This document shows, in pieces, positions 3,081 through 54,171 of a stretch of DNA of 64,000 nucleotides (positions within the stretch are counted from its first letter, which is position 1; each line of letters starts with the position of its first letter). Source of the stretch: Ashinkailepas kermadecensis (lineage: Eukaryota > Arthropoda > Thecostraca > Neolepadidae); assembly GCA_034440615.1 (NCBI GenBank), contig JAOTOM010003652.1, forward strand, positions 110,020-174,019, in the 5' to 3' direction. The notes beneath the pieces were generated by a model that worked only from the letters and a program-made list of their open reading frames with translations, ran no database searches and was not told the DNA's origin. The position numbers and the translations under genes were made by a program.

Positions 3081-3178
3081 GACAACAAAAACCTGTACAT
3101 CGTGCTGCCGTACGTGTCGGGCGGCGAGATGTTCTTCCACCTGCGCCGGCTGCGTGCTGCCACCAAGCGCGGCTTCCA
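3081..3178 (+). CDS. PKA-C: PKA-C alternative exon 3a (variant hinge and helix D)
   Basis: This 98-bp exon runs from acceptor ...tattgcag to donor GTAAGG (3179). It encodes 32 residues plus two bases, beginning DNKNLYIVL and containing YVSGGEMFFHLRR. It aligns with residues 112-138 of mammalian C-alpha. The ribose- and substrate-binding Glu127, Phe129 and Arg133 are kept. It differs from the canonical exon by Pro at 121 (normally Glu, in the adenine-binding hinge), Ser at 124, Phe at 130, and a basic five-residue insertion after helix D (LRAATKRGF). Codons are GC-rich, like the constant exons. It enters in phase 0 and leaves with two bases, the same as exon 3b. Joined to exon 4 it reads ...GFH-ESHSRF. 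A pseudoexon is possible, but the intact frame and both splice sites argue against it. Confidence 0.85.
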
Positions 3179-3199
3179 GTAAGGCTGCGTCGACGGCTA

Positions 3200-3715
3200 C
3201 CGCCCGCACACAATGTTCGGGTGTCCGGCTGTCCGACAGGGTGTCCGGCTACCGCCCGCAGTGTCCGGCTACCGCCCGCAGTGTCCGGGTGTCCGGCTAT
3301 CGCTCGCACGTACTGTCCGGGTGTCCGGCTACCGGCCGCAGTGTCCGGCTCTCCGACAGGGTGTCCGGCCATCGCTCGCACTCACTGTCCGACAGGGTGT
3401 CCGGCCACTGCCTGCACACACTGTCCGGGTGTCCGGCTACCTCCCACACAAGGTGTCCGGCCGTCTGTTCGCTGTTGGACGTGTCGGAGGTACGCTGGAT
3501 GGTACCGATGTCCGGTGCGGTGTCCACTTGCGGATTGGTGTTGTCCTCATCAAGTGTCCGGCGGTATGTACGGTTTGGTGTCCAGGGTGTTGTCCAACGT
3601 GTTATCCCGGTATTGTCCTGCGTGTTGTCCGCGTGCTGTCCGGGTGTTGTCCAGCGTGTTGCCGGGTTTTGTCCGCGTGTTGTCCACGTGTTGCCAGGTG
3701 TTGTCCGGGTGTTGA
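3200..3715 (+). repeat. TGTCCGG minisatellite between exons 3a and 3b
   Basis: About 15 degenerate units on the core 'gtgtccggctaccgcccgca' occur from 3215 to 3460. They are followed by a related 'gtgttgtccgcgtgttgtcc' array at 3580-3715. The array fills most of the 611-bp intron separating the two alternative exons and starts about 35 bp after the 3a donor. Confidence 0.85.
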
Positions 3716-3789
3716 CAAGATATCGGGGTGCATGTTCGACGACTGATGTCAGATAACGTTGGCTCACACGGGCGTCCCGTCTGTTTCAG

Positions 3790-3872
3790 GATGCTTCGAA
3801 TTTGTACATGGTTTTAGAATATGTGCCCGGTGGAGAGATGTTCTCCCACCTTAGGAAAAGCGGCAGGTTTAG
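3790..3872 (+). CDS. PKA-C: PKA-C alternative exon 3b (canonical-like hinge and helix D)
   Basis: This 83-bp exon lies between acceptor ...tctgtttcag and donor GTAAG (3873). It encodes 27 residues plus two bases: [20 protein letters not shown], then LRKSGRF. It matches C-alpha residues 112-138 without gaps, with hinge Glu121-Tyr122-Val123 and Glu127, Phe129 and Arg133 all present; the gatekeeper is Leu instead of Met120. The split codon joins exon 4 as Ser139 (GRFS-ESHSRF). Codons are AT-richer than in every other exon of the gene (TTG, TTA, GAA, TAT, TTT), although the protein is the more conserved of the two versions. Its acceptor has a better pyrimidine tract than that of 3a. Confidence 0.95.
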
Positions 3873-15307: not shown

Positions 15308-15434
15308 CGAATCGCACTCGAGATTTTACGCGGCGCAGATCGTGCTGGCGTTCGAGTACCTGCATTACCTGGATTTGATATACCGGGACCTCAAGCCAGA
15401 AAATCTGCTCATCGACAACCAGGGCTACATCAAG
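15308..15434 (+). CDS. PKA-C: PKA-C constant exon 4 (catalytic loop)
   Basis: 127 bp between acceptor ...ctccgcag and donor GTATGG (15435). After the split Ser139 codon it encodes residues 140-181, from [13 protein letters not shown] to IDNQGYIK. It contains the PKA-type catalytic loop YRDLKPEN: Arg165, Asp166 (catalytic base), Lys168 and Asn171 (magnesium ligand), plus Glu170. Changes from mammalian C-alpha are few (for example Tyr for Ser in EYLHSLD). It ends in phase 0. Its last 14 bases and the donor form the first unit of a 31-bp tandem repeat, so near-copies of the splice site follow in the intron. Confidence 0.97.
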
Positions 15435-15575
15435 GTATGGCACCGACGACTAGGGCTACATCGAGGTACGGCACCGACGACTAGGGCTACATCAAGGTAC
15501 GTCACCGACGACTAGGGATATACCAAGGTGCGGCACCGACGACTAGGGCTGCGTCAAGGTACGGCATGCACAGTC
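15421..15575 (+). repeat. 31-bp repeat duplicating the exon 4 5' splice site
   Basis: Five units with period 31 start at 15421, 15452, 15483, 15514 and 15545. The core is 'agggctacatcaaggtacgg' followed by 'caccgacgact'. Each unit copies the exon end (GGCTACATCAAG) and a GT donor; the second to fifth have ggtacg, ggtacg, ggtgcg and ggtacg. Degenerate related sequence continues to about 15690. Use of the second or third donor would shift the frame (31 or 62 nt added). The fourth (93 nt) keeps phase but crosses an in-frame TAG. Confidence 0.95.
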
Positions 15576-22690: not shown

Positions 22691-24980
22691 ATAAAGTCAT
22701 AAAGTGCTAAGGCTTAATAAGAGCCACAGGGGTTAAGCCTATCTAGAAAAGGTACTAGAAATGTACATACTCTCACCCCAATCAATCTCTTATCTCAAGT
22801 TCCTAGGGAGCTAAATATCCCAGCCCATCTAGCACAATTCACTTGCTATTGCATAACACACTCAACAATTACAAACTCCTCCCGTCATACCCATTGTGCT
22901 ACCATAGACAATCTCATCAGTATCACATCCCGAAGGAAGGTGCTGAATCCACTGCTAGGTACACCCTATATAAAGTTATGAAGCGTTTAGACTTAATAAG
23001 AGACCCAAGGGCTCATCCAGTTCAGTCTGTAAATGGAAGATACCATAAGCCTGGTAAAAAGACCCACCCCAACCATCCCACATTCTGAAGAAACCAGTCC
23101 CCCAATATCCCACACACTTATCAATACTTATCTACCCTACCTATCCAGCCCTATTCCCCTGAGCTCTCTTAACACATGTGGATTGAATGCCTTATCAATA
23201 ATTTTCCAACTGCATCCATGCCTGCTGAAAGGGGTCTGTGTCGTGCACACTTTCTTAACATAAATATCACCCCATCCATCACAAATTAGAACTCAAAAAC
23301 AAGATTGTCCTGTCTAAAAATTTGTCCACCCTACTTTTATATACATTCAATGAGGAACTCCCCACAACATCAGCAGGCAGCCCATTCCACTGATCAACAA
23401 CCCTTTGACCTCAATGAGATCTCCCCGCAGCCTTCTGTATCTAAGTGAAAACATATTCAATTTCTTCAATCTTTCCTCATATGCCAGGTTGCTTATACCA
23501 TTAACCATTTGTGTTGCCCTCTTTTGTACTCTCTCTAAAAGCCAACAATCTTTTTCATAACTAGGGGACCAAGCTTGGACACAGTATTCCAAATGCGGCC
23601 TGACATATGCACAGTAAAGCTTCCTGATGATTTCCTTACCTTTGTATGATACATTCCTATTTATTTCCCCAAGCATTCTTAGTGCCTTCTTCCTGGCTTC
23701 TTTGGTCTGTTCTGATGCCCCCAATTTTGTGTTCAAAATAAAACCTAAGTCCTTCTCATGCTGCATCACAGATAGTACTTGGCCACCCATCAGGTATGGA
23801 GCCTGCATATGCTGCCTACCTACATGCATGATTTTGCACTTACTAAAGGCCTCACTAAAGTCAAGATATGCTACATCAACCTGATTTCCCTGATCAAATT
23901 GTTCTGTAGCAAAATTCAAGAAGTCCAAGAGATTTGTGCGACACGATCGCCCTTTTCTAAACCCATGTTGAGTATCTTGAATCAATCTGTTTACTTCCAG
24001 AAAACTAACTATTCTATCCTTGATAATTGATTCAAGTACCGTGCAGACTAGGGATGTGAGGCTTACTGGCCTATGGTTTTCAACTTTCCTTCTTTCTTGA
24101 AAATAGGAACTACATTTGCCCTCTTCCAATCTGTTGGAATTTCATTTTGTGAAACTGATCTATTATTATATTAAGTGGACAACAAAATATATAATATTTT
24201 ATATACAAAATATTGTATTAAGTGGACTTGCCAGTTCCTTTTCAGCTTCCCGCAATACCCTAGCATAAGTTCCACCAGGTCCTGCTGTCTTGTTTGGCTT
24301 TATTTTCCTGATATAATTGAAAACAACATCACTATCAATGAAATCAATATCGTTTATCTGATCACCTGTCACTGAACTGTGGTGTACAGTTGGCAGATTA
24401 GTCACATCTTCCAATGTAAACACTGATTTAAACTGCTTGCTCAGCTCCTCAACCATCTCACCATCCTCACTCAATATGGTCCCATTTACTTCCAGTGGAC
24501 CAATTGTGCTTGAAACTTTACTTAGCTTGTAGAAACTAAAGAACTTTTTACTGCCCCCATTACAGTTCCTAGCCAAATCCAGTTCTTTTGCTCGCTTTGC
24601 TGCTCTGGTTTTCTGCTTTACAGCATCTCTAGCTTTTTGATAAGACCTTAGATTTACGATATTTGAAGCTTCCTTAAATACTCTAAATGCATCTTTCTTA
24701 GCCTTAATTGCTTTCATCAAATCTGGTGTAAGCCATGCTGGCTTTCCTACCCTTCTTTTGCGCCTTTGCTTTTGGGGGACATGTCTAATCTGAATTTCCC
24801 TGAAGTAAGATTTGAACTCTTCCCACATTTCACAGGCTAAATCAAAGAATTCTTCTTCCCATTTTATGGCACTTAAAGCCTCTCTCATGCAGTCAAAGTC
24901 TGCCCTGTTAAAATTTGGAATCTTTGCCAAATTATCCTTGATTGTCCCTGCTACTTGTGCCTTGAATCTCACTATGTTAT
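22690..24980 (-). mobile_element. CR1-like LINE, internally deleted reverse transcriptase
   Basis: Minus-strand frames at 24199-25023 and 23347-24129 read as a CR1/L2-clade LINE. In order: the linker after the endonuclease (KPAWLTPDLMKAIKAKKDAF), RT motif region NKTAGPGGTYARVLREAEKE, RPVSLTSLVCTVLESIIKD, HGFRKGRSCRTNLLDF and VDVAYLDFSEAF. It then jumps directly to SKCKIMHVG, so the part carrying the FADD active-site box is missing. The C terminus continues with ALRMLGEINRNV and KLYCAYVRPHLEYCVQAWSP, and after a frameshift with a 'WNGLPADVV' ending near 23390. The 3' tail has two ACTTTATG units at about 22690. It is 5'-truncated, contains a small AT insertion at 24180-24216, and cannot be active. 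Confidence 0.92.
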
Positions 24981-30446: not shown

Positions 30447-31353
<907 letters not shown>

Positions 31354-32099: not shown

Positions 32100-32222
32100 G
32101 GCTACAACAAGGCGGTGGACTGGTGGGCGATGGGCGTGCTCATATACGAGATGGCGGCCGGATACCCGCCCTTCTTCGCCGACCAGCCAATCCAGATCTA
32201 CGAGCGCATCGTGTCTGGAAAG
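32100..32222 (+). CDS. PKA-C: PKA-C constant exon 6 (helices F-G)
   Basis: 123 bp between acceptor ...gtgccgcag and donor GTGGGC (32223), phase 0 at both ends. It encodes residues 214-254, [20 protein letters not shown] through IYERIVSGK. Asp220, which anchors the catalytic loop, and Glu230 (YEMAAG), which contacts the substrate P-2 arginine, are present. The only changes from mammalian C-alpha are Met for Leu in WWALG and Arg for Lys in IYEKI. A 15-bp minisatellite begins at the donor. Unspliced read-through would add VGFPTPG and stop. Confidence 0.98.
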
Positions 32223-33450: not shown

Positions 33451-33615
33451 GTGCGTTACCCGTCACACTTCAGCTCAGATCTGAAGGACCTGCTGCGGAA
33501 CCTTCTGCAGGTCGACCTCACCAAGCGGTACGGCAACCTCAAGAACGGTGTGAACGACATCAAGGGCCACAAGTGGTTCGCCACCACCGACTGGATAGCC
33601 ATGTACCAGAAGAAG
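33451..33615 (+). CDS. PKA-C: PKA-C constant exon 7 (helices H-I, start of C-tail)
   Basis: 165 bp between acceptor ...tcgccggcag and a GC donor (AAG|GCAAGC at 33616), phase 0 at both ends. It encodes residues 255-309: [40 protein letters not shown], then [15 protein letters not shown]. Arg280 of the large-lobe salt bridge and the DWIAxYQ element entering the C-terminal tail are kept. Changes are conservative (Tyr for Phe in the VRFPS and TKRFG motifs, Met for Ile at WIAIYQ). This exon must choose between two terminal exons, and it has the only non-GT donor in the gene. Confidence 0.98.
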
Positions 33616-34922: not shown

Positions 34923-35054
34923 GTGCCGGCGCCGTTCCGACCGGCGCTGCGCTTCGCCGACGACACGTCCAACTTCAACGCCTACGAGGAGGACCCGAAC
35001 GTGGTGCGGCAGGCCGCCGAGCTGCTCTACGCTAGGGAGTTTGCCGACTTTTAG
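34923..35054 (+). CDS. PKA-C: PKA-C alternative last exon 8a (variant C-tail)
   Basis: 132 bp from acceptor ...cacgcatag to stop TAG. It encodes 43 residues beginning VPAPFRPALRFADDTSNFNA and ending REFADF. It aligns with C-alpha residues 310-350. Kept: Phe314, the DTSNF segment with Phe327, Tyr330, the acidic EE, and the terminal hydrophobic motif FxxF (Phe347, Phe350). Lost or changed: the Ser338 autophosphorylation site (region now PNVVRQAAELLYAR), the EKC segment with Cys343, and Lys317-Lys319. It is two residues longer than 8b. Strong GC codon bias matches the constant exons. The intact frame, acceptor and preserved ends argue for a working alternative exon and not a decayed copy. Confidence 0.9.
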   Translation: MPAPFRPALRFADDTSNFNAYEEDPNVVRQAAELLYAREFADF

Positions 35055-35561: not shown

Positions 35562-35687
35562 GTGGAGGCGCCGTTCATCCCCAAGTGCAAGGGCCCCGGC
35601 GACACGAGCAACTTCGACGACTACGAGGAGGAGCGGTTACACGTGTCCTCCACCGAGAAATGTGCCAAGGAGTTCGCCGACTTTTAG
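35562..35687 (+). CDS. PKA-C: PKA-C alternative last exon 8b (canonical C-tail)
   Basis: 126 bp from acceptor ...ggcgtccacag to stop TAG. It encodes 41 residues, [20 protein letters not shown], then [20 protein letters not shown] and F, aligning without gaps to C-alpha 310-350. The nucleotide-gating FDDY (Phe327, Tyr330), the acidic EEE, a serine at the Ser338 position (HVSS), Cys343 and the C-terminal FxxF that docks on the N-lobe are all present. It is the default mature tail. The 507 bp between the 8a stop and this exon show no strong poly(A) signal. Confidence 0.97.
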
Positions 35688-54015: not shown

Positions 54016-54171
54016 GGGGAACGAGTGGTCTAGGGGTAAGATGCTCGTCTCACAATCGAAAGGTTGTGGGTTCGAGTCTCACCTGTCGCTACTCTTCGCC
54101 CGCGACCAATCGGCGTGAGAGATTGGCGACGCTACATGACTCAACGGTCGACGTGTCGTAAAACCAATAAC
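54016..54171 (+). mobile_element. tRNA-derived SINE, near full length, with 13-bp TSD
   Basis: The tRNA-like head has A box GTGGTCTAGGGGTAAGATGC, an anticodon loop that reads CTCACAA (CAC, valine-like by resemblance) and B box GGTTCGAGTCTC. The shared body 'ccaatcggcgtgagagattg' and an 'accaataacc' tail follow. A 13-bp duplication, CAACGCCTTCTGG, lies at 54003-54015 and 54172-54184. It is the best-preserved member of this family in the window. Confidence 0.94.

Follow-up and report, generated by a model that had tools for sequence, protein, structure and literature searches.

Alternative internal exons, used one at a time, are reportedly present in the gene for the PKA catalytic subunit (PKA-C) of Aplysia, and PKA-C isoforms are said to have been described by Palmer et al. 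(1999) in an arthropod, the tick Amblyomma americanum. According to the consulted part of PMC3625193, human PKA genes have alternative first exons, one PKA-C gene was found per species in the animals concerned, and the layout of exons 2 to 10 is conserved across chordates, sea urchin and Daphnia. For JNK, the choice between exons 6a and 6b is tissue-dependent, as stated in the consulted part of PMC8329584. As a type, alternative PKA-C exons are known, and databases already contain the barnacle isoforms discussed here in the form of automatic predictions; the literature searched yielded no account of a PKA-C hinge-exon pair.

The window, that is the whole 64,000-nucleotide stretch C3155:110020-174019 of Ashinkailepas kermadecensis, includes the 3' portion of a gene for the PKA catalytic subunit, here gene A; the assembly searched comprises 907.7 Mb in 4,689 contigs. 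Two adjacent exons of this gene, both on the forward strand and open in frame 0, encode versions of the hinge and helix D: the alternative upstream exon 3a (98 bp, 3081..3178; AG/GACAAC...CTTCCA/GTAAGG, with slashes at the exon borders) and the canonical exon 3b (83 bp, 3790..3872; AG/GATGCT...GTTTAG/GTAAGC), separated by a 611-bp intron that is mostly minisatellite (3179..3789). Both are entered in phase 0 and left with two bases over, and the splice sites agree with the lengths and phases that the earlier note had assigned to them. The same note held that taking both exons or neither would shift the frame; joined in silico, either arrangement leads to early stops, in gene A as well as in the second gene described below, so a working message must contain exactly one of the two.

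The homology of the two exons is clear. Joined to the next exon, 3b aligns to solved structures of PKA-C alpha over residues 112-182 (E=7.8e-37). With 3a in its place, the match has E=4.6e-29 and is interrupted by a gap of five residues past residue 135; over their first 23 residues, 3a and 3b are 69.6% identical. In the search of its own genome, gene A 3a gave a strong match at its own locus only. These adjacent homologous exons of equal phase, which in both genes disrupt the frame if included together or skipped together, have the features of a mutually exclusive pair, and we consider 3a/3b confirmed as a real homologous, frame-linked exon pair. From this arrangement we infer that gene A would use 3a and 3b one at a time. 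Chance was ruled out by homology, by the intact splice sites and by the fact that records of other barnacles contain both versions as well.

Gene A is a PKA-C gene by its closest solved relatives, which are PKA-C, and by its complete kinase domain (Pfam, E=2.9e-67), and it possesses Glu127, Arg133, YRDLKPEN and DFG. Where 3b encodes Glu121, Pro124 and Ser130, 3a encodes Pro121, Ser124 and Phe130 and retains Glu127 and Arg133, exactly as had been claimed before and as is read from the translation. The five basic-rich residues also claimed for 3a stand only as a five-residue insert: as aligned it reads RAATK, with two basic residues of five, and further Arg and Lys lie on both flanks.

The remaining exons of gene A were located by tblastn, in a search that began at the C3155:75293 exon, and their borders were read from splice sites. 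Three earlier coding exons lie upstream of the window on the same contig (C3155:75293-75354, 76730-76858 and 95409-95507). Downstream of the pair, all on the forward strand, are the common next exon that follows 3a or 3b and carries YRDLKPEN (127 bp, 15308..15434), an exon with DFG and the activation loop (96 bp, 31111..31206), and two further PKA-C exons of 123 bp (32100..32222) and 165 bp (33451..33615), the latter with a GC donor (AAG/gcaagc) where its gene B counterpart has a GT donor. The resulting series of 62-129-99-83-127-96-123-165 bp plus a last exon, nine exons in total, fits the layout of exons 2 to 10 given in the consulted part of PMC3625193, in whose numbering 3a/3b would be exon 5.

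Gene A has two last exons on the forward strand. The alternative one (34923..35054) encodes the C-tail VPAPFRP...YAREFADF followed by a stop and resembles the tail of the Amphibalanus record P0122 (33 of 43 residues), and the canonical one (35562..35687) encodes VEAPFIPK...FDDYEEE...EFADF and a stop. The FDDY tether packs on the nucleotide pocket region shared with the hinge; in the alternative tail it reads FNAY, with Phe and Tyr retained, and from FNAY to the end there is no Ser or Thr here and one Ser in Amphibalanus. Since two hinge exons are combined with an alternative last exon that changes the C-tail, up to four kinases from gene A are possible. Alternative tails also occur, among the matches listed, in records of two crabs, a damselfly, a springtail and Priapulus. 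Six alternative tails of other animals, used as queries at E<0.1 for an alternative last exon of gene B, recovered its canonical last exon only.

Minisatellites with many different units fill the introns of gene A from 3194 to 34776. At 15413-15566, the end of exon 15308-15434 recurs together with its donor in about five copies of a 31-bp unit. AGGTA is found at 15432, 15464, 15494 and 15556, so that decoy donors lie downstream of the true donor; their use would shift the frame, since each step is 31 bp. The end of exon 31111-31206 occurs again in the intron, at 31230-31265, with GCGAGT instead of the GTGAGT donor. A reverse-transcriptase fragment (RVT_1, E=1.7e-7) on the reverse strand at 23350-24141 is probably an intronic remnant of a non-LTR retrotransposon. 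ARAGORN detected no tRNA in the window, and Rfam gave two tRNA-like matches (1142-1212 and 54024-54084), perhaps tRNA-derived SINEs.

The own-genome search revealed a single other PKA-C gene, gene B, on contig C3065. It carries its own pair with proper splice sites, 3a (83 bp, C3065:137548-137630) and 3b (83 bp, C3065:138021-138103), in the same order and with the same frame logic, separated by an intron of 390 bp. Between the two genes, exons e2-e7 without the hinge exon differ by dS 0.90 and dN 0.03, and the 3b exons by dS 1.0 and dN 0.03 (nine synonymous and two nonsynonymous differences). The 3a exons differ by dS 0.58 and dN 0.40, an amino-acid change per site more than 10 times that of the rest. 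Any 3a compared with any 3b, within or between genes, is saturated (pS 0.97-1.09), with the qualification that a GC3 of 0.85-0.91 in 3a vs 0.52-0.56 in 3b distorts the dS comparison on 27 codons. Because 3a and 3b are saturated, whereas the dS between the two 3a exons is close to the gene average, the duplication of the exon appears to predate that of the gene.

Two features of base composition and divergence stand out in the A/B comparison. The GC3 of 3b is markedly low in both genes (0.56 in A, 0.52 in B) compared to 0.60-0.95 in the other exons. The canonical last exons (35562-35687 in A, C3065:153145-153270 in B) differ by a dS of 0.21 vs 0.90 for the rest, perhaps through gene conversion or synonymous constraint.

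We searched for both 3a types in other species, whose records are automatic gene models. Gene A 3a retrieved three proteins, all from Amphibalanus (P0121-P0123; P0121 and P0122 begin inside the kinase), in which 32 of 33 residues are equal and the junction GFH/ESHSRF is the one predicted for splicing 3a to the next exon. Among these gene A records, X2 has the canonical tail and X1 the alternative tail, both with 3a, and the third is full-length, lies on another contig and contains X2 whole. Exon 3a, for which the earlier note had proposed a search among related PKA-C proteins, is thus intact in a close relative, neither absent nor frame-broken. Gene B 3a is equal to the Pollicipes version at 28 of 28 residues and to the Amphibalanus gene B record P0003, which has an extra N-lobe stretch, at 27 of 28. 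Both hinge versions occur among the Amphibalanus gene B records, the 3a one being P0003. In Pollicipes, searched with the gene B exon (best 120 of 572 matches listed), predicted isoform X2 carries the 3a version and X1 the 3b version, and the two differ only within residues 188-209, all in the hinge exon.

In a midpoint-rooted tree with 6 of 25 rows left out, genes A and B grouped with Amphibalanus A, Amphibalanus B, Pollicipes and two environmental rows (support 100/99), and Pollicipes was placed with gene B (83/79). No Pollicipes gene A was present among the matches to gene A 3a; it may have been lost in Pollicipes, or the gene duplication may be younger. Given that gene B 3a is identical to that of Pollicipes and gene A 3a is the odd one, most of the 3a change probably fell on the gene A copy, and the near-identity with Amphibalanus would place a stasis after it.

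Among the animal proteins retrieved, the hinge/helix-D segment of PKA-C, a reference kinase, is nearly invariant. In 231 exon copies from 228 retrieved proteins, position 121 is occupied by E in 219, by D in 8, by P in 3 and by Q in 1, and position 130 by S in 227, by F in 3 and by A in 1; as the searches favored proteins similar in their hinge words, this count is not a census. The spacer past residue 134 comprises four residues in 226 copies and nine in 3, the first versions of the isopod and mite models discussed below being unscorable. The copies with P, F and the nine-residue spacer are the three Amphibalanus gene A records; Pro121 with Phe130 was found in 0 of the 228 other copies, and the five-residue insert in 0 of the 226 other scorable ones. 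A natural, conserved Pro121 with a helix-D insert offers a ready experiment on the role of this segment.

What these changes could do to the kinase can be approached from known contacts. A ligand in the adenine site is bonded by the main chain of hinge Glu121 and Val123 (consulted part of PMC13167742), and Arg133 hydrogen-bonds the P-5 backbone of the substrate, with Glu127 pairing with the P-3 Arg (consulted parts of PMC11728977 and PMC3219626). ATP binding is probably kept in the 3a isoform, since the hinge bonds are main-chain ones, Pro121 still has its carbonyl and Val123 is unchanged. We expect upstream substrate preference and the binding of PKI or R subunits to be altered more than nucleotide binding, as Phe130 and the insert change the surroundings of the retained Glu127 and Arg133. 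The earlier proposal of altered nucleotide, substrate or inhibitor binding is therefore weak in its nucleotide part, and helix D with the insert near Arg133 would be the better candidates. The predicted structure of the Amphibalanus 3a isoform (mean pLDDT 58, 54-row alignment) is too poor for a functional reading.

As to how exclusion might work, the donors of the exon pairs (gtaagg, gtaagc, gtaacg and gtaaga) are U2-type by eye, and exclusion by U12/U2 incompatibility was rejected because they are unlike the U12 consensus in the same visual comparison. Exclusion by a very short intron was ruled out by the introns between the pairs (611 and 390 bp). With introns of this length and ordinary donors, neither steric hindrance nor U12 competition explains the exclusion, and frame loss followed by decay would be the simplest account. 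The pyrimidine fraction of the gene A acceptors is 0.50 for 3a vs 0.67 for 3b, and in gene B it is 0.72 for both; the weak 3a acceptor of gene A says little, since two other gene A exons also have 0.50 and gene B 3a is not weak.

The reading that we prefer, with a probability of roughly 0.7 for the whole, is an old duplication of the hinge exon, a later gene duplication, an either-or use of 3a and 3b, and a 3a that alters helix-D contacts. A tandem duplication of the 83-bp hinge/helix-D exon would have produced the upstream 3a and the downstream 3b, and the whole PKA-C gene would have been duplicated afterwards to give two barnacle genes. Each message would take 3a or 3b, presumably in a tissue-dependent manner, and messages with both or neither would be frame-shifted and lost to nonsense-mediated decay. 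The 3b message would encode canonical PKA-C. Gene A 3a, having changed much after the gene duplication, would yield a PKA-C that has Pro121 and Phe130 and is longer by five residues where helix D ends; this kinase may hold ATP through the hinge main chain and meet the P-5 region, PKI and perhaps R subunits differently through helix D and its loop.

The alternative that survives best, although we regard it as unlikely, is a division of labor between the genes, in which gene A would nearly always use 3a and rarely its 3b, gene B would supply the canonical form, and a specialised kinase gene would have 3a as its constant hinge and not as a splice choice. It would account for the Amphibalanus gene A records, all three of which carry 3a and none 3b; however, that search used words from 3a, leaving 3b records out of its reach, the gene B listing covers the best 120 of 572 matches, and gene A 3b is intact and constrained, with the nine synonymous vs two nonsynonymous differences from gene B 3b given above. 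That gene A 3a is a decaying copy with no working product would fit its fast amino-acid divergence from gene B 3a (dN 0.40), but the lack of a stop, the good splice sites and the 32 of 33 residues kept in Amphibalanus make this very improbable. Misjoined pieces or haplotypes, conceivable in an assembly of 4,689 contigs, are hardly credible given that gene B, which lies on a different contig, and the Pollicipes and Amphibalanus proteins show an equal order, and that the A and B introns between e3 and e4 fail to align. A haplotig, in particular, was ruled out by the A-B dS of ~0.9, the non-aligning introns around the pair and the presence of both 3a types in other species.

Returning to the preferred reading of an exon duplication followed by a gene duplication, there is a hint that the hinge pair may be older than barnacles. 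Fused automatic models of the isopod Armadillidium (P0004) and the mite Tyrophagus (P0124) contain a divergent hinge exon followed by the canonical one. The two kinds of tail are also fused in the mite model, and the isopod residues that come next to the first hinge version do not agree with a GT donor in the same position. When the isopod version was used as query, the mite was the only other case of this hinge type among the best 120 of 520 matches listed. Fused bivalve and nematode models also ranked high, and the nematode model P0001, which repeats an identical stretch, is probably an artefact. A wider picture, tentative and rather doubtful at present, would make the alternative hinge arthropod-old (barnacle, isopod, mite) and combine it with the alternative C-tail as 2x2 modules around one nucleotide pocket; the burst and stasis of 3a in the barnacle gene duplicate might then have produced a new substrate or inhibitor selectivity, for instance a kinase weakly held by PKI or by one R class.

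Compared with known systems, the barnacle locus resembles molluscan PKA-C genes in that an internal kinase exon exists in two versions. Four bivalve PKA-C models (P0005, P0006, P0007 and P0008) have the YRDLKPEN exon twice in tandem, in differing versions, an alternative pair of the next exon that gene prediction has fused. The doubled exon in the bivalves is thus the one after the hinge, whereas in the barnacle it is the hinge exon itself, and the YRDLKPEN exon is present as one copy in each of genes A and B. The pair also resembles exons 6a and 6b of JNK (MAPK8/9), which are mutually exclusive exons inside a kinase domain; there, exclusion relies on interlocked U12 and U2 splice sites, as described in the consulted part of PMC8329584, whereas the donors of the barnacle pair are U2-type by eye. 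The hinge-exon pair represents a route of PKA diversification other than the alternative first exons of the human genes.
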